Shown piece after piece: positions 386-59,742 of a stretch of 60,625 bases of DNA. The translations under genes were made by a program, and so were the position numbers. The notes under the pieces are model-generated. The model was given only the letters and a program-made list of their open reading frames with translations. It had not been told where the DNA came from and did not search any database. Every line of letters starts with the position of its first letter. Position 1 is the first letter of the stretch. Origin of the DNA: a virus; IMG/VR virus record IMGVR_UViG_3300048996_000177, positions 1 to 60,625 of that record. One strand, 5' to 3'.

Positions 386-397
386 TACGATGACGGT
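386..397 (+). promoter_or_regulatory. Candidate leaderless promoter (-10 box)
   Basis: TACGAT at 386-391 is followed by 6 nt and then the ATG at 398, so transcription would start at about the A of the start codon. No clear -35 box is seen 16-18 nt upstream. The same spacing recurs before many genes in this genome. Confidence 0.5.
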
Positions 398-1123
398 ATG
401 AATCTTCTGCGGAATACCATCATCATTTTCCTGTGGCTGATCATCACGTTGGCCTTGGCGTTCACGGTTCCTCTGGCAGCTGCCATGTTCATGCTGACGA
501 CGGCCATCACATTGATTTTGCGCCCTGGTTTGGTCCGTATCGCCTTTGGAATGGATCGGCGACCGAATCCGCGTTCCACGGGGGGTTCGTCGACTGTGGG
601 CGAAATCAGGGGGCAAACAGGTGTCAACGTGATCGGCAACAACAACACGATTACGGTGAACCACATCAATCAACCCGCCTCCGATGGGGTCAGATATACC
701 GATGGCGGATGGGTTATTGGTCCGGGTCAAATGATCATGATGCCGCCAGATGCGACGTTCGGACGCACTGACGGCGGTCAATGGGTGCCAAAAGGCAACC
801 CGTATGACCCCGATTTCGGTCCGGGGTGGCGTGAGCTGGCCGACAATCGGGATGCCATCATTCGCATATATTCCGGGGGTGGGGTCGGGTCGATGGAGAC
901 GTCCGAACAACGTCGCGAACGCGAATGGCTGGCGGGAAAAGATATCGTCGATGCGGCCAAAAACATCGTGATTCCGGGCGATCGGCCACGGTTGGACGCT
1001 CGACTGCATACACAGCATCCAGAAATGGAATGTGCCATTTGTGGTGTGGAATTCATCGACCATGCATACGCCGATCACCCATGGGAAGAGATTCAGGAAG
1101 CGGGTTTCGAGAATGAAACGTAG
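398..1123 (+). CDS. Membrane protein with RHIM-like motif and zinc site
   Basis: 241 residues. Two hydrophobic segments (about 6-25 and 27-48) predict membrane insertion. Just after them comes VNVIGNNNTITVNHI, a short beta-type motif resembling the RHIM/bacterial amyloid signalling motif. The C-terminal part has a CAIC pair plus several His, possibly metal-binding. The start is supported by a TACGAT box 6 nt upstream and the lack of a ribosome binding site. The function is unknown; a similar motif occurs at about 5.75 kb. Confidence 0.75.
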   Translation: MNLLRNTIIIFLWLIITLALAFTVPLAAAMFMLTTAITLILRPGLVRIAFGMDRRPNPRSTGGSSTVGEIRGQTGVNVIGNNNTITVNHINQPASDGVRYTDGGWVIGPGQMIMMPPDATFGRTDGGQWVPKGNPYDPDFGPGWRELADNRDAIIRIYSGGGVGSMETSEQRREREWLAGKDIVDAAKNIVIPGDRPRLDARLHTQHPEMECAICGVEFIDHAYADHPWEEIQEAGFENET

Positions 1124-1352
1124 ATACGTGCAATGGCGGATGTGGGCATTTCTTGGCTCGCGGTTGTCGACGGCGATCGATCGGTGGCACAATCGACCCC
1201 GGCGCATACGGGTGCTGGTGTATGGCAACCCGGGATATGGCGCGGTACGATTCGTTAGAGGTCCGTTCGTAGAGATTACGGATAAAGATGGCGAAGCAAT
1301 GATCGAAGGATTGCAACGCGGATTGTGGTTGGAGAATAACGACGATGAGTGA
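1113..1352 (+). CDS. Small basic protein, unknown
   Basis: 79 residues, Arg/Trp-rich N-terminal half with a more ordinary C-terminal half. It overlaps the gene before by 11 nt and the one after by 8 nt, which fits translational coupling in a packed early operon. No family recognised. Confidence 0.65.
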   Translation: MKRRYVQWRMWAFLGSRLSTAIDRWHNRPRRIRVLVYGNPGYGAVRFVRGPFVEITDKDGEAMIEGLQRGLWLENNDDE

Positions 1353-1539
1353 TAAGCCGAATACCTGGAAAATGATTCGGGGGTTCGACAACGCACCGGC
1401 GTTGAGAGAATTCGTGGAAGCGTATCAACATGAATTCGAGAAGTTGATTGGTTGCGTGACGTTGCGCGCACAAGCGGAGATCGTTAGGTCCATTGTGGAC
1501 AAAGAAGTTGCACGATCGGAGAATAACGATGGTGAGTAA
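1345..1539 (+). CDS. Small protein, unknown
   Basis: 64 residues, probably helical. The start overlaps the end of the previous gene and its end overlaps the next start. No motif recognised. Confidence 0.6.
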   Translation: MSDKPNTWKMIRGFDNAPALREFVEAYQHEFEKLIGCVTLRAQAEIVRSIVDKEVARSENNDGE

Positions 1540-2284
1540 TCGATTCTTGGAACGGCACGCACGGCTGTTGCGGCGCATTCACATGGCCGCACACACGTGG
1601 GATGCCGACACCCTGGCGACGCACGTCAAGTGGATTCTGGACGCGGAACACGCCTATTGGTCCACCAAGCCCGCAGGTGATTCGGAAGAATGGCGCGATT
1701 ACGAAGACGCAGGTGTTGCGGACCGGCAGGGCCAATGGATGCAAAATAAGACCAAAGCAGATGATCATCCGTTCAAAGATATGCCGTTTAAAGGTATGCC
1801 GGTCGAAGAATTGCAACAATGGATTCAGAAGAATGGCCCCATCCCCGATGCTCTGGACCCGCGTCGTGCTGCATATCGCGGCGACACGCATCCACACCCG
1901 CTGGCCAAGTTTCACACGGGCAATGAACTGTCCACAGGGGACACATTTCCTCCATTCGTTCAGGCGCATCGCGATCCCGTGTCGGGTAAGCTCGTGCCGG
2001 ACATGCCGAACGTTCAAGACATGATGATGCGTTCATCATTCGGGGATGTGGTGAAGGCGGCCACACCCATCATTGATTATCTTCGATGCAATCCAATTCC
2101 TTTGATTCCCCGAGCACCATATGTCGAGGGATTGCGTCGACAGGTGTACGAAATGGGTGTGTGCCTATGCCCGTTGAATGCGACGCACAACAGAAAAGAC
2201 CACGATCAATTCCAGGATATGATCGCCATGGATCTGGACGAACAATATGCCGCCCGTGAACAATCAACATCAAAAGAGGAATAA
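1529..2284 (+). CDS. Hypothetical protein, 251 aa
   Basis: Starts at ATG 1529, overlapping the previous stop by 11 nt. The N-terminus is helical and His/Trp-rich. The middle repeats the phrase KDMPFKGMP. A late CLCP cysteine pair followed by NATHN resembles short motifs in actinophage proteins, but I cannot assign a family. The end is acidic. Confidence 0.7.
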   Translation: MVSNRFLERHARLLRRIHMAAHTWDADTLATHVKWILDAEHAYWSTKPAGDSEEWRDYEDAGVADRQGQWMQNKTKADDHPFKDMPFKGMPVEELQQWIQKNGPIPDALDPRRAAYRGDTHPHPLAKFHTGNELSTGDTFPPFVQAHRDPVSGKLVPDMPNVQDMMMRSSFGDVVKAATPIIDYLRCNPIPLIPRAPYVEGLRRQVYEMGVCLCPLNATHNRKDHDQFQDMIAMDLDEQYAAREQSTSKEE

Positions 2285-2287
2285 GAG

Positions 2288-2419
2288 TTGTCCATTGTGG
2301 ACTTGATCGGCACGGTATCTTTTGTGGCCGTGTCGATCGTGTCAGTCGTTGTACGATGTGTGCATCAAACGAAAGGGGTGAAGAATGGAAGACGTGTTAA
2401 TACCTCTTCCCGAAAATGA
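2288..2419 (+). CDS. Possible 43-aa membrane micropeptide
   Basis: TTG start 4 nt after the previous stop. Residues about 2-22 form one hydrophobic segment, then a basic tail. The last 35 nt overlap the next gene in another frame. Filling of the gap and the transmembrane pattern favour a real gene; the rare start and overlap argue for caution. Confidence 0.4.
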   Translation: MSIVDLIGTVSFVAVSIVSVVVRCVHQTKGVKNGRRVNTSSRK

Positions 2420-2516
2420 ATCACTCGGGATCTTCAATCGAATTCTGTCCGAAGTTCGGGGTCCCAAGCCCAAACCACCACCACGCAAACGTAAAGCTCC
2501 GGTGAAAAGGAAATGA
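2385..2516 (+). CDS. 43-aa Pro/Lys-rich small protein
   Basis: ATG 2385 follows a good ribosome binding site (GAAAGGGG) and the stop overlaps the next start as ATGA. The N-terminus is short and acidic; the last third is a proline stretch and basic tail (KPKPPPRKRKAPVKRK). Possibly nucleic-acid binding; function unknown. Confidence 0.6.
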   Translation: MEDVLIPLPENESLGIFNRILSEVRGPKPKPPPRKRKAPVKRK

Positions 2517-2701
2517 CCAAATTCGAGAAGTGCGTCGAGAGAGATTCCGGTGGAGGGGAATTACATTTTCGGGTGATGCCCGGACCTTGCGAAGGGAAAT
2601 TGTCGTTACGGGTGAATCCGTTTAAGTCCGAGATTCAAGGTAACGACACACCTGAATGGTTGTGCGACAAGCATTACCACGATTGGGCGGACGAGATTTG
2701 A
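2513..2701 (+). CDS. Small Cys/His protein, unknown
   Basis: 62 residues, coupled by an ATGA overlap with the gene before. Three Cys (near residues 7, 26 and 51) and a CDKHYHDW motif near the end suggest a metal site. No family recognised. Confidence 0.65.
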   Translation: MTKFEKCVERDSGGGELHFRVMPGPCEGKLSLRVNPFKSEIQGNDTPEWLCDKHYHDWADEI

Positions 2702-2898
2702 TGACCGAAGCCCTGATCAAGAATGGCATCACACGGTGCAACTGTGCATCCCGGGGGCAACCGTATGCCCGTCCCAACATCGCAGTTGGCCGTACGATCA
2801 CCTGCCGCGTCCATACCGCACGATGGATGTGGGACGGCGTGGCATTCATCCCGGATGGAACATATGGACATAAGAAGCCCGAACGATCTGCCGGGTAA
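2701..2898 (+). CDS. Small Cys-containing protein, unknown
   Basis: 65 residues; the start shares a base with the previous stop. A CNC pair near residue 13 and a further Cys-x-Val-His suggest metal binding. Function unknown. Confidence 0.6.
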   Translation: MTEALIKNGITRCNCASRGQPYARPNIAVGRTITCRVHTARWMWDGVAFIPDGTYGHKKPERSAG

Positions 2899-3307
2899 CG
2901 AAGGGTTGACGTGGTACCGCACCCCGGGTCTGTTCAAGATTCATTACGTGCCAAGGGGAACGTATGGACGGCGTAAGTACAAGACCATTGTGCACAGTAT
3001 TACCGGCGTCGAATGGCAATGCCGCATATCGTTGACCGGCCGTCTCAATACTCGCCCTATCCTAATTCCTAATGAAGATGGATCGAAGACCAAAGAATTG
3101 ATGTACACCGAAGACCAATACGACATCATCAGGTCGGTGGTGTGGAATATCCATCACAAACGCATTGGAATGACACACGCATTCCTTATTCTTCAATCGT
3201 TGGGTTGGACTCATCTTCCCGGACAAACTCCACTGTCCGTGGGTAAAATCGTCAAATGGTACGGAAATCACATCAGGTATAGAAGAAAAGGAATACTATG
3301 GCCATGA
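2864..3307 (+). CDS. Hypothetical protein, 147 aa
   Basis: Start placed at ATG 2864, which overlaps the end of the previous gene in another frame; ATG 2855 in the same frame is an alternative. Basic, with many aromatic residues. The C-terminal half (DQYDIIRSVVWNIHHKRIG and onward) could be a helix-turn-helix. No confident family. Confidence 0.6.
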   Translation: MDIRSPNDLPGNEGLTWYRTPGLFKIHYVPRGTYGRRKYKTIVHSITGVEWQCRISLTGRLNTRPILIPNEDGSKTKELMYTEDQYDIIRSVVWNIHHKRIGMTHAFLILQSLGWTHLPGQTPLSVGKIVKWYGNHIRYRRKGILWP

Positions 3308-3510
3308 ACATGAAAGTGGACGAACCCGTCCGCACGATCACGCTGGAACTGGACTCCACCACGGCCAAGGAAATGGCCGATTGGATCGCCGACGCGGGAG
3401 TGGCGTTGGGCAGTGGCAAGATCGGGAACAATCACGCGCCACACGAAATCAACGAGCTGTACGGCGCACTCGTGTCCATCGCCCAGAACCGTGGATATGG
3501 GGGTCACTGA
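3298..3510 (+). CDS. Small protein, unknown
   Basis: 70 residues; ATG 3298 overlaps the previous gene by 10 nt and follows AAAAGGA. Predicted mixed beta and helix. No motif recognised. Confidence 0.6.
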   Translation: MAMNMKVDEPVRTITLELDSTTAKEMADWIADAGVALGSGKIGNNHAPHEINELYGALVSIAQNRGYGGH

Positions 3511-3512
3511 TT

Positions 3513-4781
3513 ATGGCGGACAGGTCGGGAATGGATGATAAGGTGAGCGTTAGCATGTGGCGTCAGCGTGTTGGTCGGGCGTTGGGCCACGACGACGGGA
3601 AGATCCCCGACTGGGACGTATTGGTCCCACAGATCAAGAAATTGAAAGACCGCATGGCGATCAATGGTGTGTCCAGTGTGAACCCATCGATTCCCGGGAG
3701 TATTCGTAAGAAGTTGGCCATCGCATTGGGCAACGAGCTTTCATCCATCGGGTCAACCGACCTAATCCCCGACTGGAACACGTTGATCAAACAGGCCGAG
3801 AAGTTGGTCGAGACGATCAATGGTGGGCTGGGCAAGTGGGTCGAAGAATTGCGTGTTGCGCTGGAAATTCCCGCCGACGCACGCACCACGTGGGCCGATC
3901 TGATGCGTCAGGTTAAAGCGATGGTGGACGAACAGCCCATTGACATATCCCGGATTCGCATGGAATGGCGTAATCAACTGGCCGCCGCGTTGGGGATGGA
4001 CTTGACCAATGAGGCCATTCCCGATTTCGGGCATCTGGTGGACGAAGTGAAAGATATGCGGGAGATCCCGCGCACCGACCATTCCCATGTAGACTGCAAC
4101 GCGTCGTTCAATGAATTGCGCAGGCGTTCGGAATGGTTGATCGAACGAGCAAAACCAGACCCCATTCAAACCTATGAATGGACGACCGCTCGCAACAACT
4201 GGCGACGTCGGTATGGTGTGGAAGGACCCGTGCTCGGCGATAAACACCCCAAGCCGATGAAGGGACAAAGCACCGCATTGCACGAGGCCGTCGAACACAC
4301 TCAGTCGACATTGAAGTATATCCATGTTCGCACGTCGTCCGGTATTAACCTGCCCGGTCCCACGGTCAACATCCACCAGGCGATCGAATTCTACGTGCTG
4401 GAAAACGAAGACCTGGTCATCGAAGATTCCAGTGGCCCGATCGCCACATACAAACACGGTCATTGGGACACGGTGATGGTCGCGCCGGAGGGGTCCGACA
4501 TTTACGCGTTGGAATGCGACCACGATCCGGCTGACACCGAACCAACATCCACGGTTGATGGTTTCGGCCGCATGCCGTGGGAACGGACCGTACAGACGAT
4601 TTCAGACCCCGTTCCGCCCGGTTTGGTGGCCGACATCCAATCCGCCATCGCGGATGCCGACATGTTGCCGAAAAACACCAAGGCATGCAGGTGCGGATGG
4701 GCGATTCGGTCATATTCAACCTATGACTCAATGGAACGAGTGTGGACCAACGAAAATTGCCCGGTGCACGTTGGTCGTTAG
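3513..4781 (+). CDS. Protein with four tandem helical repeats and C-terminal zinc site
   Basis: 422 residues. The first about 190 residues hold four imperfect repeats of 40-50 residues, each of the pattern W/I-R-x2-L-x-x-ALG then IPDW/F-x2-L-x2-x-VK; the third has TTWADL in place of IPDW. The centre is a separate domain. The end has CRCGW ... CPVH, a likely zinc site. The repeats resemble no family I can name and may form a protein-binding scaffold. Confidence 0.75.
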   Translation: MADRSGMDDKVSVSMWRQRVGRALGHDDGKIPDWDVLVPQIKKLKDRMAINGVSSVNPSIPGSIRKKLAIALGNELSSIGSTDLIPDWNTLIKQAEKLVETINGGLGKWVEELRVALEIPADARTTWADLMRQVKAMVDEQPIDISRIRMEWRNQLAAALGMDLTNEAIPDFGHLVDEVKDMREIPRTDHSHVDCNASFNELRRRSEWLIERAKPDPIQTYEWTTARNNWRRRYGVEGPVLGDKHPKPMKGQSTALHEAVEHTQSTLKYIHVRTSSGINLPGPTVNIHQAIEFYVLENEDLVIEDSSGPIATYKHGHWDTVMVAPEGSDIYALECDHDPADTEPTSTVDGFGRMPWERTVQTISDPVPPGLVADIQSAIADADMLPKNTKACRCGWAIRSYSTYDSMERVWTNENCPVHVGR

Positions 4782-4787
4782 TCGTCA

Positions 4788-4799
4788 TATGGTGTGATC
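4788..4799 (+). promoter_or_regulatory. Candidate leaderless promoter (-10 box)
   Basis: TATGGT at 4788-4793, then 6 nt, then ATG 4800. No good -35 box. It lies in the gap between two genes and matches the -10-to-start spacing seen elsewhere in this genome. Confidence 0.45.
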
Positions 4800-5105
4800 A
4801 TGCGACGATCACAAAAGGATGCGGCGGCATCGGCGATGGTTAACTCTTCAACGACCACTGCCGGGCCGTCGCTTTTGCAGTCCATCGAATCGATATTGCA
4901 GAATGAATGTGTCAAATACATCGAGATGCGCCGTGAAGAAGATAATGGGTACAACGACTCGGCGTTGCGTGTGAAGATTGATATCAAACGCGGGGAAATC
5001 CGTGGGCTCGCACGGACAGTTGCAAAAATCCGTTTGCCGTACGAGGATCAAAAAGTCGTGACCAAACAAGTGGAAAAAGAATTCATCCGAAAGGCGAAAG
5101 AGTAA
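4800..5105 (+). CDS. Hypothetical helical protein, 101 aa
   Basis: Start at ATG 4800 is chosen because of the TATGGT box 6 nt upstream; a GTG at 4794 would lie before the predicted transcript start. Charged, helical C-terminal half. The stop overlaps the next ATG by one base. Confidence 0.65.
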   Translation: MRRSQKDAAASAMVNSSTTTAGPSLLQSIESILQNECVKYIEMRREEDNGYNDSALRVKIDIKRGEIRGLARTVAKIRLPYEDQKVVTKQVEKEFIRKAKE

Positions 5106-5434
5106 TGGCATCAATAGAAGAAAAAATCAGGGACCAGTTCACGGCGGCGGACGCCCTCCGTCGGGAAAAAGACCCCCGAACGGACCACGGCCCGTCTCAG
5201 ATCCAGCGGGACATGGAAATGGCCGAAAAAGAGAAGACGGACATCGAAGAAAAAATCGTGTCCATTCAGCGGAGTATGCAGTTGGAAATGGAACGGCTCG
5301 AATTGGAAGCCGAAGGGTTGCGTACCATCGCGTCCACGAAGATCCGTGCGGCCAACGAGATCCGCAAATTCCTGTACCCGCAATCTCAGGATGAAGGTAT
5401 CGCCGTTCCAGATGTACCTGCGGGGATTGTGTGA
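5105..5434 (+). CDS. Coiled-coil protein, unknown
   Basis: 109 residues with a long Glu/Lys-rich heptad region (about residues 30-85), a clear coiled coil. It overlaps its neighbours by one base on each side, so it is translationally coupled in the early operon. Confidence 0.65.
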   Translation: MASIEEKIRDQFTAADALRREKDPRTDHGPSQIQRDMEMAEKEKTDIEEKIVSIQRSMQLEMERLELEAEGLRTIASTKIRAANEIRKFLYPQSQDEGIAVPDVPAGIV

Positions 5435-5886
5435 TGAGTTACGACGACGATAGGCGCGCGGAAAAGCGGGCCAAGGCTTCCATCGGTATGACGACCATCT
5501 CCATCAACGAGTTGAATGAATTGCGGCGCAAGGCCGCATGGCACGACAACCACCCGGAGATCTCCGGTGTACCGGAGAATAAGTTCGAATCCGGTCTGCG
5601 GGAACTGATCAACAGTTATTCCAAGGAACAGGGTTCAAATACCCCGGACTTCGTGTTGGCGTCATACCTGGTCGCGTGTCTCGACACGTTCGACTACCAC
5701 GTGCGGTATCGGGCCGGTGTGGAAAACACGCCCATGCCGGGGGTGGATTTCGTTCCCGGTGTACAGATCGGTGATCACAACAACCAAGTGAACACGTTCA
5801 ACGATCCGGTTGGTGTGAAACGGTTCCACGAGTTCCGACCGCGCAACATCGGGAAGTCGAACGAACGTCGTCAGCCGAAGCCATGA
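5434..5886 (+). CDS. Protein with RHIM/amyloid-like motif
   Basis: 150 residues. The N-terminal half is helical with ISINELNELRRKAAW. Near the C-terminus is GVQIGDHNNQVNTF, which matches the RHIM-type core (hydrophobic-Q-hydrophobic-G-x-x-N) found in amyloid signalling proteins of animals, fungi and actinobacteria. The motif is visible; amyloid formation is inference. Starts with a one-base overlap (TGATG). Confidence 0.7.
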   Translation: MSYDDDRRAEKRAKASIGMTTISINELNELRRKAAWHDNHPEISGVPENKFESGLRELINSYSKEQGSNTPDFVLASYLVACLDTFDYHVRYRAGVENTPMPGVDFVPGVQIGDHNNQVNTFNDPVGVKRFHEFRPRNIGKSNERRQPKP

Positions 5887-6011
5887 TTCAATGTTGTCTA
5901 TCGGGACAATGGTGTCCATTCGGCTGCCACGCCGACCACGAAAACGATGACGAACCGGAGAGATTCGATGCCGAAGACGAAGTTGTCGAACAACAAACCC
6001 GACCCGAGTGA
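5883..6011 (+). CDS. 42-aa cysteine-rich small protein
   Basis: ATG overlaps the previous stop (ATGA) and fills the gap before the next gene, which it overlaps by 44 nt in another frame. The N-terminus has four Cys and two His (CC, WCPFGCHADH), a likely metal site, followed by an acidic tail. Moderate support because it is short. Confidence 0.5.
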   Translation: MIQCCLSGQWCPFGCHADHENDDEPERFDAEDEVVEQQTRPE

Positions 6012-32617: not shown

Positions 32618-32677
32618 AAAAAATGATCCCCCCGGCTACGTCCCATTTTTACGGGAAAAGTCGGGGGGATTTTTTTG
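32618..32677 (+). terminator. Strong intrinsic terminator
   Basis: Stem ATCCCCCCGGCT (32626-32637) with AGTCGGGGGGAT (32659-32670), then seven T. A run of A before the left arm would give a T run on the other strand, so it may work both ways. Confidence 0.8.
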
Positions 32678-32711
32678 TAGACATCCGTGGGAGACGATTT
32701 ACATTAGGGGA
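32678..32711 (+). promoter_or_regulatory. Candidate leaderless promoter
   Basis: TAGACA (32678-32683), 16 nt, TACATT (32700-32705), 6 nt, ATG 32712. It begins right after the terminator. Confidence 0.6.
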
Positions 32712-32921
32712 ATGCCAAACAGAACAGGTACCCGCCACGAAATCAAAACGGCCAAAAGAGAAGAAGCCAAAGAGCGACAAGAAATGAGTTCGTACATCAC
32801 CGCGTCACGGGCTCGTGCCCGATTCGTTGAACTGGGGCAGCGGTCCGAATTCACCACCAATCAGTGGATGTCCGATTCGTTCATCAACCAAACCTGGAAA
32901 ACCTTCGTCAAATCGCTGTAA
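32712..32921 (+). CDS. Small basic helical protein
   Basis: 69 residues, rich in Lys/Arg/Glu in the first half. The start is supported by the -10 box 6 nt upstream. Single-gene unit between a terminator and the next promoter. Function unknown. Confidence 0.6.
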   Translation: MPNRTGTRHEIKTAKREEAKERQEMSSYITASRARARFVELGQRSEFTTNQWMSDSFINQTWKTFVKSL

Positions 32922-32931: not shown

Positions 32932-32961
32932 TTGACGTTGGCTGACGAACAGCCGTACGTT
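32932..32961 (+). promoter_or_regulatory. Candidate promoter
   Basis: TTGACG (32932-32937), 18 nt, TACGTT (32956-32961). The start codon is 30 nt further with a GGAAGGG site, so this one gives a normal leader. Confidence 0.55.
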
Positions 32962-32991: not shown

Positions 32992-33546
32992 ATGACCATG
33001 CGACGCATCGCGACCGGGTTCGCCATCATCGTGGCGATGATGTCATTCGGGGGTGTGGCGTATGCACAGGAATCCACAACCCCACCCACGACGATCGAAA
33101 CGACCACCCCGTCTGCCGAACAACCCACCACCACACCGGTGCCTACGACCGAAACCCCGGACGCGGGTGTGGAATCCTCGACGAACCCGGCCACCATCGA
33201 ACCCCGGGGAACCACACGGGCGGTCACGATCGCGCCGCCGGTGGAAACCCCCGTGGTCACATCCACAACGTCTGTGACGGCCGCCCAACGATCCACGGCC
33301 GTGGTGGCGCCGGTCGCGGTCACGGGGTCAACCACGTCCACCACATATGACGAGTTTGTGGCCACCCCGCACAATGTGATGCCGATGGGTGTGGTAAACC
33401 GGTCGTTGGACGCGCCAACGGGTTTTGTCGGCGTGCTGGCCAAACCATGGGTGGGATGGGGTTTGGGCATGTCCATTCTCGTATTCTTCATTGGACTGGG
33501 AATGGTCTTATTCAATTGGCGGGGGACCGGCTCAACTCACGATTGA
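32992..33546 (+). CDS. Secreted, membrane-anchored Thr/Pro-rich protein
   Basis: 184 residues. N-terminal signal peptide (RR, hydrophobic core, cut after AYA at about 27). Then about 85 residues very rich in Thr, Pro and Ser, mucin-like. A C-terminal transmembrane segment (about 152-174) follows and a short polar tail. The topology predicts a stalk outside the host membrane, possibly glycosylated. Own promoter. Could block superinfection; not shown. Confidence 0.75.
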   Translation: MTMRRIATGFAIIVAMMSFGGVAYAQESTTPPTTIETTTPSAEQPTTTPVPTTETPDAGVESSTNPATIEPRGTTRAVTIAPPVETPVVTSTTSVTAAQRSTAVVAPVAVTGSTTSTTYDEFVATPHNVMPMGVVNRSLDAPTGFVGVLAKPWVGWGLGMSILVFFIGLGMVLFNWRGTGSTHD

Positions 33547-33627: not shown

Positions 33628-34419
33628 ATGGCACCGAAGAAGACCAAGAAGGTCGCCCCGAAGAAGACCAAGCCGGTCAACGACGAAATCGACGACCTGG
33701 AACTGGACGACATCGAGGTCGACGAACCGGCCGAAGAGGAACCGAAGCCCAAGCCCCGCAAAAAGAAGGCGGCCAAGGCGAAGGCACCGGAGCCGGTCGA
33801 CGAGGACGACGATGACGCGGAGGACGAGGATGACGAACCCGCCCCCGTGAAGAAGACCACGCGGAAGTCGGCCACGAAGTCCAAGGGCCGCAAGGCGAAG
33901 GTCGTCGAACCGGACGAGGACGATGAGTCCGAAGAGGACGATGACGAAGCGGAGGAAGAAGCCCCCGCCAAGAAGTCGAAGAAGTCCGCCGCGAAGAAGA
34001 CCCCGCCGAAGCGTGAGGCGATCGAATTCGGAACGGCGTGGCTGGTCGCGCTGGTCGCGGAAAAGACCGGAAAGCCGTACACCGCATTCGATCTGCGGGC
34101 GTTGCTCCGCAAGCTCGCCAAGGCGGGCAAGATCGACCGTGTCGTGGGTGAGGATCGGGCACGGTACGAATTCACCGGGCCGAAGGATCCCATCGTCAAG
34201 ATGATCGTCGACATGGTGAAGAACGGCGACGTCGAAAAGGGCAAGAAGGAAGCCATCGACAAGCTGAAGACATCGGCGGCCAAGAAGAAGAAGGCGAAGG
34301 ACGACGACGAACCTCCGGCGGCCAAGTCGAAGAAGTCCAAGAAGGCCAAGCCGGAGCCCGAGCCGGAAGAGGATGACGAGGAAGTCGACGACGAGGATTT
34401 CGACGACCTCGACGACTAA
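33628..34419 (+). CDS. Winged-helix-like protein with long charged arms
   Basis: 263 residues from ATG 33628 (in-frame ATGs at 33604 and 33616 are alternatives). A central folded part (about 130-205; FGTAWLVALVAEKTGKPYTA) looks like a small DNA-binding domain. It is flanked by arms of alternating Lys-rich and Asp/Glu-rich blocks, with PAKKSKK motifs and an acidic end (FDDLDD). Suggests a nucleoid- or histone-like protein. The arms resemble the tail of the single-strand-binding-type protein at 52.9 kb. Confidence 0.7.
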   Translation: MAPKKTKKVAPKKTKPVNDEIDDLELDDIEVDEPAEEEPKPKPRKKKAAKAKAPEPVDEDDDDAEDEDDEPAPVKKTTRKSATKSKGRKAKVVEPDEDDESEEDDDEAEEEAPAKKSKKSAAKKTPPKREAIEFGTAWLVALVAEKTGKPYTAFDLRALLRKLAKAGKIDRVVGEDRARYEFTGPKDPIVKMIVDMVKNGDVEKGKKEAIDKLKTSAAKKKKAKDDDEPPAAKSKKSKKAKPEPEPEEDDEEVDDEDFDDLDD

Positions 34420-34420: not shown

Positions 34421-34457
34421 TTCTGTATGACGTAAAACATCGATCCGTCATACAGAA
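34421..34457. repeat. Perfect 12-bp inverted repeat
   Basis: TTCTGTATGACG (34421-34432) and CGTCATACAGAA (34446-34457) with a 13-nt loop, beginning two bases after a stop codon. It may be an RNA hairpin protecting the mRNA end or an operator; a terminator follows at once. Confidence 0.75.
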
Positions 34458-34461
34458 TCGG

Positions 34462-34493
34462 AAAGGGTCATCCATTCGTGGGTGGCCCTTTTC
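34462..34493 (+). terminator. Intrinsic terminator
   Basis: Stem AAAGGGTCATCC with GGGTGGCCCTTT (two G-T pairs), 6-nt loop, ending in TTTT. Confidence 0.7.
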
Positions 34494-34516
34494 GTCAGTC
34501 GTGGGACAATAGACGT

Positions 34517-34999: not shown

Positions 35000-35263
35000 A
35001 TGACACACCGACTCGCACAACTAACGTTCATGGTCCTCGCCATTGGCTTCATCATGGCGAAACCGCTTCCGTTGATCCAGATGGTGTCCGGGGCGGTCAC
35101 GCCCAACGGGGGGATCCCGGTGTCCGGCCAATTCAACGCGGCAGACATGATCATGGCGGGGGTGTGGATCGTCGCCACGTACGCCGCGTTCATGTGGATG
35201 TGGTTCGCCAACCGGGCGCGCAACCGTCGGATCCGCCGTCAGGCGACCGTTACCAAGGCGTGA
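35000..35263 (+). CDS. Two-pass membrane protein
   Basis: 87 residues with two transmembrane segments (about 6-30 and 48-70) and a basic tail. RBS GGAAGGTAGG. A TTGACA at 34962-34967 may be the -35 box of its promoter, but no matching -10 is clear. Confidence 0.65.
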   Translation: MTHRLAQLTFMVLAIGFIMAKPLPLIQMVSGAVTPNGGIPVSGQFNAADMIMAGVWIVATYAAFMWMWFANRARNRRIRRQATVTKA

Positions 35264-35275
35264 CCGACGAAACCT

Positions 35276-35304
35276 TTGACAACACCTACCCCCAGGGATA
35301 TATT
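35276..35304 (+). promoter_or_regulatory. Leaderless promoter, near-consensus
   Basis: TTGACA (35276-35281), 17 nt, TATATT (35299-35304), 6 nt, ATG 35311. The best -35/-10 match in the window, with the start codon at the predicted transcription start. Confidence 0.8.
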
Positions 35305-35310
35305 CGTCTT

Positions 35311-35550
35311 ATGGAAAACAACGTGAACGCCACCAACGCCCGCCGCCCCCGCCGCATGACCGGCACCGACCACGGTCGTCGTTACAACATGGTTCAAATC
35401 GAAAACGTCGTCACCGGCGCGAACATGGGCCACCGGACGTTCGACCGGATCGAAACCGTTCCGGGCAACGACAACGTGTGGGACGTCGTGTATGGCGACG
35501 GCATCCGGTACACCGAAACCCGTGGCGCATGGGTCCGCATTTACGCCTGA
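35311..35550 (+). CDS. Small basic protein, likely leaderless mRNA
   Basis: 79 residues. Basic N-terminus (RRPRRMTGTDHGRR) and a beta-rich remainder. No ribosome binding site; the promoter ends 6 nt before the ATG. Strong promoter suggests high early expression. Function unknown. Confidence 0.7.
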   Translation: MENNVNATNARRPRRMTGTDHGRRYNMVQIENVVTGANMGHRTFDRIETVPGNDNVWDVVYGDGIRYTETRGAWVRIYA

Positions 35551-35583: not shown

Positions 35584-35613
35584 CTGACGAAACGCCTGAC
35601 GGACGGGTAGGGT
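35584..35613 (+). promoter_or_regulatory. Leaderless promoter (CTGACG/TAGGGT type)
   Basis: CTGACG (35584-35589), 18 nt, TAGGGT (35608-35613), 6 nt, ATG 35620. The same two boxes with the same spacing occur at 38298-38327. Confidence 0.65.
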
Positions 35614-35619
35614 AGGCAT

Positions 35620-36093
35620 ATGACGAACGCACGGATCAACCACACGGGCCACAACCACCCCGCGACCCCGGCCGGTCGGGCCGCATGCCGGGCACACGTG
35701 GCGACATTCGCACCGACGCCCGATCACAATCCCATCGAATGGGCGTTGGACCGGGTTGTGTCGCGAAACCTGGATGAACCTACCGTTGCGGGTCGCCCGT
35801 TGACCACCGTCGATGAAATCCTGGACCAATTGGTTGGGTTGGACGCGTCCACATCCACCGGGTATGCGGTCACCGAATTGGCCACCCCGGGCCGCGATTA
35901 CATCGGCCGGAATTGCAAAACGGGTGTTCGGGTGTCGGTGCGGTTGGCGGATTCCGCCGGATGGACGATCGCGACGTTGGCCAACGCATCCGACGTGGAC
36001 GTCGCCCGGTGGGGTGTGGTGACCCCGGACCACGTGTTGGTTCGCACCGCGAATGGAAACCTGTTCGAGGTTTCCCCGGACCGGATCCGGTGA
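35620..36093 (+). CDS. Protein with CxH...CR-type motif
   Basis: 157 residues. The N-terminus has HNHPATPAGRAACRAH, one of four copies in this genome of a motif [CH]-x-H-x2-[ST]-x3-R-x2-C-R. The rest is a beta-rich domain (VSVRLADSAGWTIATLAN). No ribosome binding site; leaderless promoter. Function unknown. Confidence 0.7.
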   Translation: MTNARINHTGHNHPATPAGRAACRAHVATFAPTPDHNPIEWALDRVVSRNLDEPTVAGRPLTTVDEILDQLVGLDASTSTGYAVTELATPGRDYIGRNCKTGVRVSVRLADSAGWTIATLANASDVDVARWGVVTPDHVLVRTANGNLFEVSPDRIR

Positions 36094-37798: not shown

Positions 37799-37804
37799 TA
37801 TGAT
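37796..37804 (+). promoter_or_regulatory. Candidate extended -10 promoter
   Basis: TGA followed by TATGAT (37799-37804), an extended -10 element. A GGAAGG site and ATG 37847 follow, so the transcript has a normal leader. Confidence 0.45.
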
Positions 37805-38802: not shown

Positions 38803-38803
38803 C

Positions 38804-38850
38804 GGAAAACCAACCACCTGGCCGGTTCGCCGGTTGGGGGTTTTCCTTGA
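38804..38850 (+). terminator. Intrinsic terminator
   Basis: GGAAAACC (38804-38811) pairs with GGTTTTCC (38839-38846), enclosing an inner hairpin of GGCCGG/CCGGTT; TTGATCC follows. Confidence 0.6.
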
Positions 38851-38924: not shown

Positions 38925-38953
38925 TTGGCGCGGCTCCACACCTGCCGTATACG
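38925..38953 (+). promoter_or_regulatory. Candidate leaderless promoter
   Basis: TTGGCG (38925-38930), 17 nt, TATACG (38948-38953), then 8 nt to ATG 38962. Confidence 0.5.
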
Positions 38954-38961
38954 GTCGTTTC

Positions 38962-39468
38962 ATGGCCCAAATGATGAAACTCTTGGTCCCCCCGACGTGG
39001 GACGAATTGATGGATGACGACGTGTACCGGACGTACGTCCGCCGACGTCCCAGATTGCCCGTGAACGTCGATCGTGGCGAACCGTGGTTGGTGGTCGCCC
39101 GACGATTCCCGGATACGGACAGACCATTGTGGGGTCTGAAACGGTTCGATGATTACGCCGACGCGTACCGGTTCGTGCGGGAAAAGCTCCGTGGTGAATT
39201 GTTCGAGGATATGGCGATCGTGTCCCGACCGAAACTCTGGAAACCGCCGGTGGGGTTCCGGTGGAACCAATCCAAATTCGGTTGGTGTGGAAGGTGTCGT
39301 CGGCCGTCCGTGTTCACGCACGTCACCAAACACCATGCCTTACGCGGGGCTCCCGTGTTGGCGACGGAAGACGGCAATCGGTGTCATTATTGTGGGGCAC
39401 GGGAAATATTCGCCTCCCGGCAATTCCGCCCCCGGAAAGCACCCGTAAAAGCACCCGTAAAGGAATAA
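38962..39468 (+). CDS. Protein with zinc-ribbon-like C-terminal half
   Basis: 168 residues. First half basic and aromatic (PTWDELMDDDVYRTYVRRRP). Second half has CGRC and CHYC about 40 residues apart, a zinc-ribbon pattern. Basic Pro/Lys end. Function unknown. Confidence 0.65.
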   Translation: MAQMMKLLVPPTWDELMDDDVYRTYVRRRPRLPVNVDRGEPWLVVARRFPDTDRPLWGLKRFDDYADAYRFVREKLRGELFEDMAIVSRPKLWKPPVGFRWNQSKFGWCGRCRRPSVFTHVTKHHALRGAPVLATEDGNRCHYCGAREIFASRQFRPRKAPVKAPVKE

Positions 39469-52881: not shown

Positions 52882-52885
52882 GCAC

Positions 52886-54259: not shown

Positions 54260-54272
54260 CGACGATCGGGGG

Positions 54273-55358
54273 TTACCCGTTGGCCGCGCGGTACGCGGAT
54301 CGGCATGCCGTACGCGCCGATGTGGTGGATGGGTGGGTGCACGCCGCATGCGACAGGCGTCCGTTGACCATCGCGGGACCGCCATCGGTGGGTGTGGAAT
54401 CCAACCGCCCAACCGGGGGGACGGCGTCGGCAACGATTTTAATGGCGTTGATCAGATCCACGATTTCGGATGCACGGCGGGGGGTGGCGTCACGGGCGAC
54501 AACCAGGTTTCGCAACCCGATCCATGAATCGACGTCAACCCCGGCGTCGTTCAAGCTTTTGATCAGGTTGTCGACAACCACGATGTTCGGGTCGAAATCC
54601 TCGACGCGGGTGGTGGGTTCCGGGGTGTTGTCCGCGACCGTGGAGGTTTCGATTTCGGCATTGGTGCGGGGGGCATCATCGGTGCGGGTCAGGCGTCCCC
54701 CGCAAATCGGGCCGATGCCCGCGTCGATCGATTCCGGGTTGGTCAGGGTCCGTCCGCACATCATGCACCGGCCCGTCCGGCGACCGAACGCGGCAGCGAT
54801 TTCATACGACACCACGTCGTCCGACGACAGGTTTTTGACCACACCTGGGGTGTACACCCATTCGCCCGTGGCCGGGTCCAATACGACCGCGTACGGTTTG
54901 CCGGACGTCCGCGAGATTTTGACGCGGGCAACGGTGTCGTCGTACGTGTAAAAACCTTCCGCGATGACGCGACCCCGGGTGATCGGTTTCGCGGGGTTGA
55001 CCGTGCGCACGATGTTGGTGCCCGGGATGTTGCGCGTCACCGGTGCGTCATCCACCGGGGTGATTTTGGTCATTTTGACCGGACGGGATTTGCCCGTGGA
55101 TTTGCGTCCCGTGGACGCCGGTTTGGTTTCCCCGCCCAATTTGATGCCGCCGTTGGCCATGGCACCGGCCGACGACAACGGGCCGTCGTATGTGGCGGCG
55201 CATTTGTTCGCCACGGTCGCCCGTTGGGCCGGTGTGGTGTCGCGTGATGCGAATTCGGCCACCATGCCAGGGTTGGTGCGATCGTAGGCGTTGATCAACG
55301 CCTTGGTGGTCAAGTGCTCGTACCCAGTACGGGTGTTGGTGCCGCGTGTCGTCGTCAT
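54273..55358 (-). CDS. DUF6011-like zinc protein with CxH...CR motif
   Basis: 361 residues from ATG 55358, with a TACGAT box 6 nt upstream. A DUF6011-type zinc motif, GRCMMCGRTLTNPES ... GIGPICGG, lies at about 190-220. The extreme C-terminus is CTHPSTTSARTACRSAYRA, the motif shared with three rightward genes. Basic linker regions between. Function unknown. Confidence 0.7.
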   Translation of the reverse strand: MTTTRGTNTRTGYEHLTTKALINAYDRTNPGMVAEFASRDTTPAQRATVANKCAATYDGPLSSAGAMANGGIKLGGETKPASTGRKSTGKSRPVKMTKITPVDDAPVTRNIPGTNIVRTVNPAKPITRGRVIAEGFYTYDDTVARVKISRTSGKPYAVVLDPATGEWVYTPGVVKNLSSDDVVSYEIAAAFGRRTGRCMMCGRTLTNPESIDAGIGPICGGRLTRTDDAPRTNAEIETSTVADNTPEPTTRVEDFDPNIVVVDNLIKSLNDAGVDVDSWIGLRNLVVARDATPRRASEIVDLINAIKIVADAVPPVGRLDSTPTDGGPAMVNGRLSHAACTHPSTTSARTACRSAYRAANG

Positions 55359-55364
55359 GCGACG

Positions 55365-55370
55365 ATCGTA
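55365..55370 (-). promoter_or_regulatory. Candidate leaderless promoter (-10 box)
   Basis: TACGAT on the minus strand, 6 nt before ATG 55358, just after a terminator. The -35 box is weak. Confidence 0.5.
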
Positions 55371-55392
55371 AGGCATTTTGAAGATCCAACTG

Positions 55393-55425
55393 GAAAAATG
55401 ACCCCACACCCCGCAAGGTGTGAGG
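55393..55425 (-). terminator. Intrinsic terminator
   Basis: Minus strand stem CCTCACACC/GGTGTGGGG with a 6-nt loop, then TCATTTTT. Ends the 85-residue gene upstream. Confidence 0.7.
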
Positions 55426-55442
55426 CCATCGTTATCAACCGG

Positions 55443-55700
55443 TTAGGTCATGTCGAACCCCCGTTCGATCGCCGTCACCATGTCGAACGTGGCGTTAGGG
55501 CCGGTGATGGACGGGTGACGGGCGATCATGCCCGCGAACACGTCGTACACGGCCGACATGGCCGCACCGTGGTCCACCAATGTGCCGTGCCCCAACGCGG
55601 CGGACGACCACATCAACAGGGTATTCGGTCCGTCCACACCCAACGCCTTGGCGACCGTGACGGCGGTGTGGGCCAAGAGTTCAATCGATTCGATGTTCAT
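55443..55700 (-). CDS. Small protein, unknown
   Basis: 85 residues from ATG 55700; ATG 55712 is also in frame but a TATGGT box 7 nt before 55700 favours the shorter form. Helical, no motif. It has its own promoter and terminator. Confidence 0.6.
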   Translation of the reverse strand: MNIESIELLAHTAVTVAKALGVDGPNTLLMWSSAALGHGTLVDHGAAMSAVYDVFAGMIARHPSITGPNATFDMVTAIERGFDMT

Positions 55701-55707
55701 AGATTTC

Positions 55708-55713
55708 ACCATA
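55708..55713 (-). promoter_or_regulatory. Candidate leaderless promoter (-10 box)
   Basis: TATGGT on the minus strand, then 7 nt, then ATG 55700. Weak -35 region. Confidence 0.4.
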
Positions 55714-55719
55714 TCCCGA

Positions 55720-56454
55720 TCAGGATTCGATGTGTCTGCGGGTGTCCCCACCAACGCGGGTGTTGCCGATGTCGGCCCGGTTGCCCGCACGGTATCCGGC
55801 GGTCACCCCATCGCGAGAATTCACCGAAGTGTTTTTGTATACGGCCCGGTTGGACACGATACCGGCTGTTGCGGTTTCATAATGGCGTTGGACCATTTCC
55901 CCCCGATCCCGTACGACCAGGGCCGCACCGACCGTTTCAGACACGTTTTTGGACCGTGCATGGCGCAACCGGTCCAATACCCGGCCGACATATCCGTGGG
56001 CGAACGAAACCTTCCACGCACGGGCGTTGTCAGACCCGATGTATTCGCGCCAATCGACGTCCATGTGGTTGGCCAATTGCAATTCGATGGAGGTATACAT
56101 TTGCTGGACGAACGCGATATCTGATTCGAATCCCCACAGACCCATGAACGACCGGTCGGCCGCCAAGGTGGGACGGACGTTGTACAGGAATGCCAGACCC
56201 GTCATCAATTCGCGGCGAGCTTTGATATACGGTGCGTTTTTCATCCGCAGAACCATGACGTTGGTGAACATTTCTTCCGGCGCGTGGTTCGAACCCGCCG
56301 CCGCGCGGATTTGCGCGTCAGAAATCGTCATCGACAATTGCAATTCGGAAGCTTTGGCCAGGTAATTGGCGGCCATTTCCTCCGTAATGCCGGGATCTTC
56401 CGCCATCGCCAGGAGTTTGGCGATTTTGGACGCGTAATCGTGAGGTTTGGTCAT
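55720..56454 (-). CDS. DUF2786-domain protein
   Basis: 244 residues from ATG 56454 (GTG 56463 overlapping the previous stop is an alternative). The start YASKIAKLLAMAEDPGITEE and ANYLAKASELQ is the DUF2786 motif common in actinobacterial and phage proteins of unknown role. The rest is helical, with a Gly/Arg-rich end. Confidence 0.75.
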   Translation of the reverse strand: MTKPHDYASKIAKLLAMAEDPGITEEMAANYLAKASELQLSMTISDAQIRAAAGSNHAPEEMFTNVMVLRMKNAPYIKARRELMTGLAFLYNVRPTLAADRSFMGLWGFESDIAFVQQMYTSIELQLANHMDVDWREYIGSDNARAWKVSFAHGYVGRVLDRLRHARSKNVSETVGAALVVRDRGEMVQRHYETATAGIVSNRAVYKNTSVNSRDGVTAGYRAGNRADIGNTRVGGDTRRHIES

Positions 56455-56459
56455 GGTCG

Positions 56460-56939
56460 TCACACGTCCCGATCGTTGGTGGTGGCGATGGTCAACAGGT
56501 GTGGGATTGGTGTGGTGTACGTGGCCGACACGCGCCATTCGGACACGTCACCCGGGTTGTTTTCGTACGGGTTGCGCCACCGGACGATGGCCACGTCGTC
56601 GCCGTCGATGGTGTCGAACCAGACATCGGTTTTGTTGTCGCGGGACCGGTACACGATGTCCGCGCGGTAATCGTCGACCGGACGGAACCCGGACGTCGTC
56701 AGGTATGACGCGAACAGGTTTCGGGCGGATTCGTCGTCCACCGGCCGGATCGTGGCGGGCAGGGTTCGTACGGGTCCGGGTCGATAATCGGCGCAATCCC
56801 GTTGATGCCGAATGACCGGCGGACGACCCGAATACGATCGGGCGGGACGGCCACATTCGGTGCACGTGGCGGGTGTGGGACGGGGGAACATCGGTTGCGG
56901 GGTGGTGAACCGCATCGGTGGGACGTCGTCGGATTTCAT
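56460..56939 (-). CDS. Hypothetical protein with CxxC motif
   Basis: 159 residues; ATG 56939 chosen because GGAGG lies 7 nt upstream. CTECGRP and a later RHQRDC give a possible zinc site. The C-terminal part is beta-rich. Function unknown. Confidence 0.65.
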   Translation of the reverse strand: MKSDDVPPMRFTTPQPMFPRPTPATCTECGRPARSYSGRPPVIRHQRDCADYRPGPVRTLPATIRPVDDESARNLFASYLTTSGFRPVDDYRADIVYRSRDNKTDVWFDTIDGDDVAIVRWRNPYENNPGDVSEWRVSATYTTPIPHLLTIATTNDRDV

Positions 56940-57003
56940 TGGTTTACCTCCACGTCGTCGACCCATGTTTTGGGTTCGAATTTCAGGATTTCGTCGGTGG
57001 GTG

Positions 57004-57030
57004 GGGGCGGCCGATCGTGAACCGCCCCCG
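57004..57030 (-). terminator. Possible terminator hairpin
   Basis: GGGGGCGG/CCGCCCCC stem of 8 bp with an 11-nt loop just after the stop of the gene at 57039. There is no T run, so it may only protect the mRNA end. Confidence 0.35.
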
Positions 57031-57038
57031 TGGGTGGA

Positions 57039-57389
57039 TTATTCGTCGTCGTCGTCGGTGCAACCATCGGGGAATTCGGTGTGTTCGTCGATGTCGTGCC
57101 CGCATTTCGGGCAAATGTCGAAATCCAACACCAACATGTCGTGCCCGGGGTTGGACAACATGGCGTTGATCATATCCGCCACCATGTGACCCAATTCGCC
57201 GATTTTCTCCAATTCGGACCGGTCACCATCGGGCATCATGTTGCGGACCGCGTCGTACATGTCATCGTACAAATCCTCGTCCGTGATGGACAACGCGATC
57301 ATGATTCCCCGGATACCGGTGATCGTGACGGCGTCCACCTGCGGAACGTTGGAAGGGAACGGCGGGAAGGTGGGGCGGGTATCGGTCAT
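57039..57389 (-). CDS. Acidic protein with C-terminal zinc motif
   Basis: 116 residues. Helical acidic core, then FDICPKCGHDIDEHTEF-type ending with a third Cys, a half zinc ribbon. Start fixed by a strong promoter 6 nt upstream and absence of a ribosome binding site. Confidence 0.7.
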   Translation of the reverse strand: MTDTRPTFPPFPSNVPQVDAVTITGIRGIMIALSITDEDLYDDMYDAVRNMMPDGDRSELEKIGELGHMVADMINAMLSNPGHDMLVLDFDICPKCGHDIDEHTEFPDGCTDDDDE

Positions 57390-57395
57390 ACGATG

Positions 57396-57424
57396 ATCTT
57401 AGACCCCAATCGACGTCGTGTCAG
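57396..57424 (-). promoter_or_regulatory. Leaderless promoter
   Basis: Minus strand: CTGACA (57424-57419), 17 nt, TAAGAT (57401-57396), 6 nt, ATG 57389. Confidence 0.7.
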
Positions 57425-57462
57425 GCGTTTTTCATGATCCATCTGGGGTTGTTATCAAGGCG

Positions 57463-59706
57463 TTACGTTGTCTGCCGTGCCCGTCGTCGTGGCCGTCGTG
57501 CCGCGCCATCGATTTCCACGGCGGTTGCGCGCCGCAACGTCCGTTCGCCGGTCGAACGTTTCCGGGTAGGTGTGGAGGTAACGTTGACCTGAGCCTGTTC
57601 GTGAATCGCACGCGTGAACACCTTGACCGACAAAAACGGCCTGGTGCGTTTGCCCGGATCCGGTGCACCTTCCACGACGTACCCGTGCAACACGAGTTGA
57701 TCAAGACATAATTTCGCCGATTGCGGGGATAGTGATCGACCGGTGGATTCTTTCACCTCACGGATGATTGCACGAACGCCTATCCCGTTATGGTTTTGTT
57801 CCAACACCTCGGAAATCTTTTCCATTGACGCAGCCATTTTTAATGGGGCTTCACGTTTAATCGCCTGTCCGTCCGGCAATGTCAATTCGTAATGCATGGT
57901 GGATGATAGGTCGGTCGGGTCGTCCACCCACACCGTGCGTTCCACGGCGAAATCTTCCGTCATCACCTCGTCGCCTTTAATCTCCCAATTCTGCAACACA
58001 ACGGTCTTTCGGGTGACCGGATCGCTGGATGACTTTTTAATCTCCACCGATATCAGGAATCGTCCCCATGCGGTCAGTCCCACACCGGACGTGCGGTTCG
58101 AGCCGGTCCCCGTGCCAGTCTTGTTCCAGTGATGGGAGATGATCAGCGCACAGTTGTACCGCTGGCACACTTCCTGGATCGGTTTCAACGCCTGGCCGAC
58201 GTCCGACAGCTTGGCGAAGTCCACACCCGATGCGGCCAGATAAAACGGGTCGATGATGCACAGGACGGCTTTCGTCGTGCGGATCTTTTCTTCCAATTCA
58301 AGAATATGATCTTCATCTTTGACCTGTGGCACCGATAACAGGATATGGAGTGGGAGGCGGTCAATTTGTTTTTCGGTCAACCCTTTGGCTCGGGCGATGG
58401 CGTCGATCCGCCGGACTTGCTTTCGTTCGGATCCTTCACCAAGACAGAGAATTACGTCGCCTTGGAAATTGCACTCAAACCGGTCCATCCATTTCGTGCC
58501 CGATGCCGCGCTGATGCCCGCGTCCAGCATCACCAACGACTTCCCCGCTTTGTCTTCTGCCGCCAACATCCCGTAATCACCTTCTGCGATGATCCCGTCA
58601 AACAGGTATCGGGGTGTGGGAGCGTTGGCCACACGTTGCCGCATCTGCCGGTACCCGACGAAATTCAGTTCCGCCTGGTCGCTGCCGTCGTCGGCTTCAT
58701 CGAACGTGGGTTCCGTGGCGGATGACGGTTGTTTCGGCCCGTTCGCTTTCAGCCAGATTCGTTCGACGTCGTTACTGATGCGCCAATCACTGCCCCATTT
58801 ATCTATTGCGGCAGGGAACGTGCGGACCAGCGCATGAGTGTTTTCCCGTGTGACGCCTTGTTCTTTACACGTGCTGACCAATTCGTAAATGGCATCACTG
58901 CGGGAATACGTGGTGCTGCCCGGTGTGGCGTGATTGTTGAACGCCTTACGTACGGGCTTGGGCAATGATTTGATGGGAGGTGCGGGGTGACTGGACGATA
59001 CCGACGACGCACTGCCGTCTGATATCGCTTCTGCCGCTTCTTTTTTGAACACCGACCACGCGATATTCGTCATGTCCGTCAGCCGGTCCACGACGGTTTT
59101 AGCCCGCGCTGGGCGGCGTGAACCGATGGACTTCAACGTCACGTTTTTCGGGACGGTGGTTTTCCAGTTCAACGTTCCTGGCAATCGCAACAGGTCGTTT
59201 TCAGCGATCTTGGTATCCGCGCCCAACGCTTCTTTCAACGCCCGGCACATCGCTTGGTGGTTTGCCGCATTGACCGGTTTGGCCAATTCTATGTATACGT
59301 GCCGGTGCCCGTCTGACCCGGACAGCACCGTCATGGCCCCCAGCGCGTTGATCCGGTCGATTTGTGCGTCTGTCGGGGGATGGTCGACGTCGGCCCACAC
59401 CCACCACAGCGGTGCGTTCGTACCCGCTTTCCGGGATGGTGTGGACCGCAATGCCGGGTTGATGAAAACCTCTACGTTCTCCGGCCGTGTCTCGGGGTTA
59501 TTGACCAATTCATCGATCTCCCCCAACATGTCGTCCTTGTCCTGCGGCCATGCGTAATATCGTTCCCGGAAATCGCCTTTGCGGAATCGCGGTTTCGTCG
59601 TCCGGGGATTGTGGCCGAACGCCATAGCGACGAATCCTTCACGAGTGCCGAACAACCGCGATAGGAAATACGACGCTGTGTCCAAATCAAATCTGTCCTC
59701 ATTCAT
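57463..59706 (-). CDS. Primase-helicase (PrimPol plus RepA-like ATPase)
   Basis: 747 residues from ATG 59706. N-terminal primase-polymerase domain with WVWADVDHP (Asp106, Asp108) and GHRHVYIEL. The centre is a RecA-type ATPase: LAAEDKAGKSLVML Walker A, LCIIDPFYLAASGVDF Walker B, then IISHHWNKTGTG. A winged-helix-like part and basic tail (RRPRRRARQTT) follow. Likely starts phage replication; it reads away from the TGTGAC-rich region. Confidence 0.88.
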   Translation of the reverse strand: MNEDRFDLDTASYFLSRLFGTREGFVAMAFGHNPRTTKPRFRKGDFRERYYAWPQDKDDMLGEIDELVNNPETRPENVEVFINPALRSTPSRKAGTNAPLWWVWADVDHPPTDAQIDRINALGAMTVLSGSDGHRHVYIELAKPVNAANHQAMCRALKEALGADTKIAENDLLRLPGTLNWKTTVPKNVTLKSIGSRRPARAKTVVDRLTDMTNIAWSVFKKEAAEAISDGSASSVSSSHPAPPIKSLPKPVRKAFNNHATPGSTTYSRSDAIYELVSTCKEQGVTRENTHALVRTFPAAIDKWGSDWRISNDVERIWLKANGPKQPSSATEPTFDEADDGSDQAELNFVGYRQMRQRVANAPTPRYLFDGIIAEGDYGMLAAEDKAGKSLVMLDAGISAASGTKWMDRFECNFQGDVILCLGEGSERKQVRRIDAIARAKGLTEKQIDRLPLHILLSVPQVKDEDHILELEEKIRTTKAVLCIIDPFYLAASGVDFAKLSDVGQALKPIQEVCQRYNCALIISHHWNKTGTGTGSNRTSGVGLTAWGRFLISVEIKKSSSDPVTRKTVVLQNWEIKGDEVMTEDFAVERTVWVDDPTDLSSTMHYELTLPDGQAIKREAPLKMAASMEKISEVLEQNHNGIGVRAIIREVKESTGRSLSPQSAKLCLDQLVLHGYVVEGAPDPGKRTRPFLSVKVFTRAIHEQAQVNVTSTPTRKRSTGERTLRRATAVEIDGAARRPRRRARQTT

Positions 59707-59713
59707 GTCACGT

Positions 59714-59742
59714 AATGTATAACGTGAGAAATTTAAAGACAA
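59714..59742 (-). promoter_or_regulatory. Leaderless promoter of primase-helicase
   Basis: Minus strand: TTGTCT (59742-59737), 17 nt, TACATT (59719-59714), 7 nt, ATG 59706. Confidence 0.65.

Follow-up and report, generated by a model that had tools for sequence, protein, structure and literature searches.

How a phage would express genes whose start codons stand directly behind a promoter-like hexamer, with little sign of a ribosome-binding site between the two, is the question raised by ten genes in the 60,625 nt of viral DNA that were analysed here in full (IMG/VR record IMGVR_UViG_3300048996_000177, hereafter the window). On the sequence evidence, the ten positions very probably mark ordinary actinobacterial sigma-A promoters whose transcripts begin at the A of the ATG and so lack a leader. 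Starts with a box at 6-7 nt account for about a tenth of the window genes; the feature is real and widespread in actinobacterial phages, and its density in the window is typical of the group. The window comprises all or most of the genome of an actinobacterial siphophage. Its MCP matches almost exclusively named phages of Mycobacterium, Gordonia, Microbacterium, Arthrobacter and similar genera, the best being Arthrobacter phage Wollypog (50%), and it is from these relatives that we infer the host phylum. The first 25 kb have no close DNA relatives among named phages, a scan of viral contigs with the window primase returned no relative, and bacterial genomes scanned with the terminase yielded neither a prophage nor a relative, and hence no host.

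Bacterial leaderless genes have a published signature, a TANNNT motif some 12 nt ahead of the start codon (PMC3160421), and for translation in mycobacteria it is enough that the mRNA begins with ATG or GTG (PMC4633059). Read directly from the sequence, all ten positions singled out by the initial annotation have a TANNNT before an ATG, with a spacer of 6 nt in eight cases and 7 nt in two (Table 1), and the leaderless reading proposed there remains the best one. The upper end of the 6-8 nt range then given applies only to a TATACG at 38962, which overlaps the TACGGT at 6 nt. Good -35 elements had also been proposed for several sites, at 16-18 nt. A TTGAC-like hexamer 16-19 nt before the -10 is clear at three (strong at 35311 only, good at 57389 and 35620), fair at 32712, 38962 and 59706, and weak or absent at 398, 4800, 55358 and 55700. 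The reported lack of a ribosome-binding site agrees with a median anti-SD energy of -3.8 at the ten sites, as against -3.9 for shuffled sequence and -6.0 for the other starts, the exceptions being 398 and 35620, where G-rich stretches could pair with the anti-SD. A pyrimidine occupies position -1 at nine of the ten sites and at 23 of 73 other starts (P 6e-4).

Table 1. Predicted leaderless promoters, the genes behind them and neighbouring hairpins in the window (ranks are those of a promoter model among 4789 RTG codons)
Feature	Coordinates	Strand	Remarks
TACGAT box (386-391), 6 nt, ATG 398; 241-aa orphan gene	386..400	+	Weak -35; rank 15
TATGGT box (4788-4793), 6 nt, ATG 4800; 101-aa gene	4788..4802	+	Weak -35; rank 7
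Terminator hairpin with a tail of seven T, immediately upstream of the 32712 promoter	32625..32675	+	-30.8 kcal/mol, z -4.9
TAGACA, 16 nt, TACATT, 6 nt, ATG 32712; 69-aa gene	32678..32714	+	Rank 356
TTGACA, 17 nt, TATATT, 6 nt, ATG 35311; 79-aa gene (35311-35550)	35276..35313	+	Rank 1
CTGACG, 18 nt, TAGGGT, 6 nt, ATG 35620; 157-aa gene	35584..35622	+	Rank 3
Terminator-like hairpin upstream of the 38962 promoter	38803..38848	+	-24.3 kcal/mol, z -2.5
TACGGT, 6 nt, ATG 38962; TTGGCG upstream at a long 19-nt spacing	38950..38964	+	Rank 8
168-aa gene of the phrog_13148 family, cysteine-rich	38962..39468	+	Conserved leaderless gene (predicted)
361-aa gene with DUF6011; TACGAT, 6 nt, ATG 55358	54273..55358	-	
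85-aa gene; TATGGT, 7 nt, ATG 55700	55443..55700	-	Codon score 31.7; rank 2
116-aa gene; CTGACA, 17 nt, TAAGAT, 6 nt, ATG 57389	57039..57389	-	Rank 5
747-aa RecA-like/primase-helicase gene; TTGTCT, 17 nt, TACATT, 7 nt, ATG 59706	57463..59706	-	Rank 65

The sites differ in quality. The promoter at 35311 is the best in the window and the sole exact match in a scan of it (reversed control 0). A promoter model trained only on other phages and applied to the window's 4789 RTG codons places the ten at ranks 1, 2, 3, 5, 7, 8, 15, 23, 65 and 356, eight of them in the top 25, although this supports the reading without testing it independently, since TANNNT has a heavy weight in the model. A simple sigma-70 scan is uninformative by itself (7 found against 3.4 expected, and 2 against 3.3 in a second run). 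The gene at 4800 has an alternative GTG start at 4794 and is the least certain among the sites on the structural side. Sites 32712 and 59706, which score lowest, could be chance matches or belong to leadered genes: an AGGGGA that could serve as a short SD precedes the ATG at 32712, and the orthologue of 59706 in a related genome (G001, below) has no box, which counts against a leaderless reading. The gene at 55358 has a single homologue among the related loci described below (L057 8969), which is likewise of leaderless type, with a TTGACA.

First to be weighed is that the boxes are chance matches, the genes being transcribed from promoters further upstream and translated through ribosome sites that are weak or coupled. 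TANNNT is a permissive motif, chance alone should give about one match at 6-7 nt in 82 starts and account for about one of the ten sites, and some window sites have no -35. The enrichment nevertheless withstands unbiased start calling. Window genes were called from codon usage alone, upstream signals being unused in choosing the 82 starts, and among these TANNNT lies at a distance (d) of 6 nt in six cases and of 7 nt in two, while no other distance between 0 and 21 has more than one (Poisson P 7.8e-7 for the eight at d=6-7, from an empirical background of 0.35 per distance). A first-order Markov null gave a mean of 1.2 and a maximum of 6 in 4000 runs, never reaching 8; a mononucleotide shuffle, which disregards the rarity of TA, gave a mean of 1.95 (P 0.0017, window alone). 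The count per distance against shuffled sequence that the initial annotation had proposed thus peaks where it should, and its view that the exact spacing is hard to explain by chance is upheld. There is no TANNNT peak over all 2371 ATGs of the window taken together (12 at d=6), which means that the signal belongs to gene starts. Three of the ten sites (35311, 55700 and 4800) are absent from the called starts. The start called near ATG 4800 is GTG 4794, 6 nt away, and 35311 is a real start by codon score: its frame is negative upstream of about 35194, the coding signal begins at about 35224-35311, and the frame 35000-35263 stops just upstream of the promoter. A TANNNT at exactly d=22 was also seen in four called starts of the window; these are possibly promoters with short SD leaders and possibly chance.

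The same base-exact distance recurs in relatives, which speaks further against chance. In an uncultured relative of 58.9 kb with 71% capsid identity (G001, IMGVR_UViG_3300045996_001882), TANNNT stands at d=6 in 14 and at d=7 in 3 of 87 starts, and at no more than one start at any other distance up to 39 nt (Poisson P 1e-20). Most of its boxed starts are on the right arm, behind TTGCG or TTGACA boxes. That arm (L013, about 49.4-57.1 kb of the record) carries a series of small genes, almost all of which have a -35/-10 of their own and a predicted leaderless start, and the promoter sequences are alike: TGTTG ... TAGAGTTCTGGCATG. We considered whether these genes are orthologues of the boxed genes of the window and rejected it, as only 38962 is confidently shared. 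A further 58 related phage loci found through the helicase, with 1216 starts, have TANNNT at d=6 in 49 cases, at d=5 in 6 and at d=7 in 7; control patterns containing A/T have no comparable one-base peak at d=6 in these loci.

Two other promoter signals accompany the box, although the pooled d=6 set was picked for TANNNT alone. TTG[AC] occurs at -37 to -32 in 30 of 63 boxed starts as against 41 of 1225 others (P 5e-24), the TTG(A/C) element sitting 17-18 nt before the -10, and a pyrimidine is found at -1 in 57 of 63 as against 559 of 1225 (P 5e-13). For the phage group as a whole, then, a TTGAC-like -35 is clearly present. SD-like motifs precede 23% of the pooled d=6 starts and 54% of the others, and 25% and 8%, respectively, have a divergent neighbour. 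With these unselected signals, a distance that is the same to the base in the window, G001 and the 58 loci, and the boxes kept by orthologues of 38962 despite differing upstream sequences (below), we regard a chance origin of the set as improbable.

Real promoters with short leaders, in which translation truly begins at an in-frame codon further on or the +1 is at another position, are a similarly slight prospect. Some of the genes do have a later in-frame ATG or GTG, with nearby alternatives at 4800 and 32712, and the 32.4-39 kb region also has promoters that feed leadered, SD-bearing genes (TATGAT near 37799, then GGAAGG and an ATG). Against this, SD-like signals are absent, 66 of the 69 pooled d=6 starts have ATG as the first codon at exactly 6 nt (68 have ATG or GTG), and all ten window sites use ATG. 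It is the exact 6 nt spacing, together with the -35 and the pyrimidine at -1, that points to a +1 at the A of the ATG. That the box is instead the binding site of a phage regulator resembling TANNNT, and not a -10 element, is very improbable: repeated operators at gene starts are frequent in phages, but the bases flanking TANNNT vary between sites, the -35 spacing of 16-19 nt is promoter-like and the motif is the published actinobacterial -10.

The family of the gene at 38962, phrog_13148, provides the clearest view of how such a start is conserved. TANNNT at 6-7 nt is kept in 20 of its 25 members among the loci (two of which, L018 and L077, are the same phage), and the five without a box count against it. 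All ten named phages examined have it (NoShow, JacoRen57, Lauer, Cozz, Nibbles, Muddy, Zuko, Orla, Gibbous and GTE2), spanning Mycobacterium, Gordonia and Streptomyces hosts, and both the box and its distance persist where the sequences upstream have diverged. Family alignments begin within a few codons of the boxed ATG in nearly all members, which also argues against a later start. In most of the Gordonia and Mycobacterium phages the gene is back to back with a RecA-like/primase gene homologous to that at 59706. Four deposited starts seem, from the sequence, to miss the conserved TANNNT-6/7-ATG start: NoShow gp61 (L075) and JacoRen57 gp50 (L078) are late by 87 and 101 codons, Muddy gp53 (L127) starts 13 codons late at a TTG, and the start of Lauer gp55 (L076) is an ATG inside the -10 box. 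One might go further and suppose that actinophages as a group have been selected to express genes without leaders, and that genes of the phrog_13148 type depend on leaderless translation, for instance to be made while 70S or altered ribosomes prevail; this we consider unlikely, but if true the exact architecture would be kept for that purpose across phages of Mycobacterium, Gordonia and Streptomyces.

Other genes use the box more sporadically. The DNA polymerase gene is boxed in 10 of 45 relatives (L026, L039, L046, L051, L052, L053, L057, L061, L069 and L071); several of these genes begin 4-12 nt past the upstream gene, so that the promoter overlaps the end of that gene. The DNA polymerase of the window appears to be SD-led, with AAGGA preceding an ATG that follows closely on the called GTG 46533. 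Among fourteen phage genomes processed alike, boxed starts make up 5% in Giles, 9.8% in the window, 11.6% in NoShow, 12.2% in BiggityBass and 19.5% in G001. The controls lambda, T7 and SPbeta have no peak (none in lambda and T7, no excess over background in SPbeta); the actinophages Krampus and phiC31 also have none, which counts against the explanation favoured here. The figure of 9.8% is ordinary for the group and predicted leaderless promoters in phages have already been published (PMC4351075), and the suggestion that so concentrated a use deserves study was thus too strong.

Nor is the set genome-wide, as had been supposed. Eight of the ten sites fall in two blocks of mostly small genes, at 32.7-39.0 and 55.4-59.7 kb. 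None of the 25 called genes in the structural block (8.9-32.4 kb) and none of the 18 in the mostly replicative 40.5-54.3 kb has a box at 6-7 nt; boxed starts number 4 of 15 in 32.5-40 kb (one being a TTG at 32932, outside the ten), 3 of 6 in 54.3-60 kb and 1 of 17 in 0-8.9 kb. After start correction this becomes about 8 of 22 in the two blocks and 2 of 62 elsewhere (Fisher P 2e-4). The small genes of 32.4-39 kb are single units, as indicated by the hairpins and T runs just before the 32712 and 38962 promoters, the former hairpin having been missed by a simple terminator scan and found by folding energy and z. A very strong terminator-like hairpin also lies at 34455-34502 (-26.2 kcal/mol, z -6.7), just before gene 34517, whose ATG is preceded at 6 nt by an imperfect box, GACAAT. 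The product of 33628-34419, upstream of which is a TTGACA-18-TATGTT promoter at 33543, is lysine-rich with acidic repeats (KKTKK and DDDDE runs) and is reminiscent of a histone-like protein; its C-terminal part matches phrog_16498.

In the mechanism that we favour, leaderless transcription from sigma-A promoters, the phage would set a host-type promoter (TANNNT as -10, often with a TTGAC-like -35 at 16-19 nt) at about ten genes, such that the +1 lands on the A of the ATG and the mRNA begins with AUG. Host leaderless initiation would then translate this AUG-first mRNA without a Shine-Dalgarno sequence, and small, probably early or regulatory genes would become single transcription units turned on by unmodified host RNA polymerase. 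The feature is a known way of expressing genes, and phage annotation often misses such genes. It provides an inexpensive rule, exact to the base, for locating actinophage promoters, transcription units and true start codons, helpful where start calls based on ribosome sites fail, phage Muddy included, while the predicted leaderless start of phrog_13148, conserved over three host genera, is a ready test case for why phages use leaderless mRNA.

Single predicted leaderless cases in mycobacteriophages have been reported before. What appears to be new from these sequences is the base-exact peak over many actinophages, the conserved, putatively leaderless start of one family and the probable misannotation of starts in public databases; full-text literature searches found no survey of leaderless promoters across actinophages, which is not to say that none exists. 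The classical leaderless phage mRNA is that of lambda cI from PRM (PMC3160421, PMC4633059), but it is a single case in E. coli, and the lambda genome is without a TANNNT peak at 6-7 nt. Adephagia P90 is likewise a single predicted leaderless mycobacteriophage gene, part of a HicAB-like pair (PMC11373665), unlike the many genes of the window. A published system of another phylum is reported to share a promoter box adjoining the ORF, giving leaderless mRNA, while the relatives of the window phage infect Actinobacteria. Closer are the Cluster O mycobacteriophages (Corndog), with leaderless SigA promoters predicted at PL1, PR2 and PL2 (PMC4351075); there too, as here, the +1 of each phage sigma-A promoter would coincide with the first base of the start codon, although the promoters number three rather than about ten and belong to another phage lineage. 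The closest likeness is to the leaderless genes of Actinobacteria themselves (M. tuberculosis and Streptomyces), which share the -10 motif, the spacing, the preference for ATG and the missing SD (PMC3160421, PMC3898074, PMC4633059). Leaderless genes make up 26% of those with a primary start site in M. tuberculosis, where no conserved -35 was found, whereas the phage group has a recognisable TTGAC -35 at many sites. The share is also lower in the phages, 10-20% of starts as against 22-26% of the expressed bacterial genes whose start site has been mapped.
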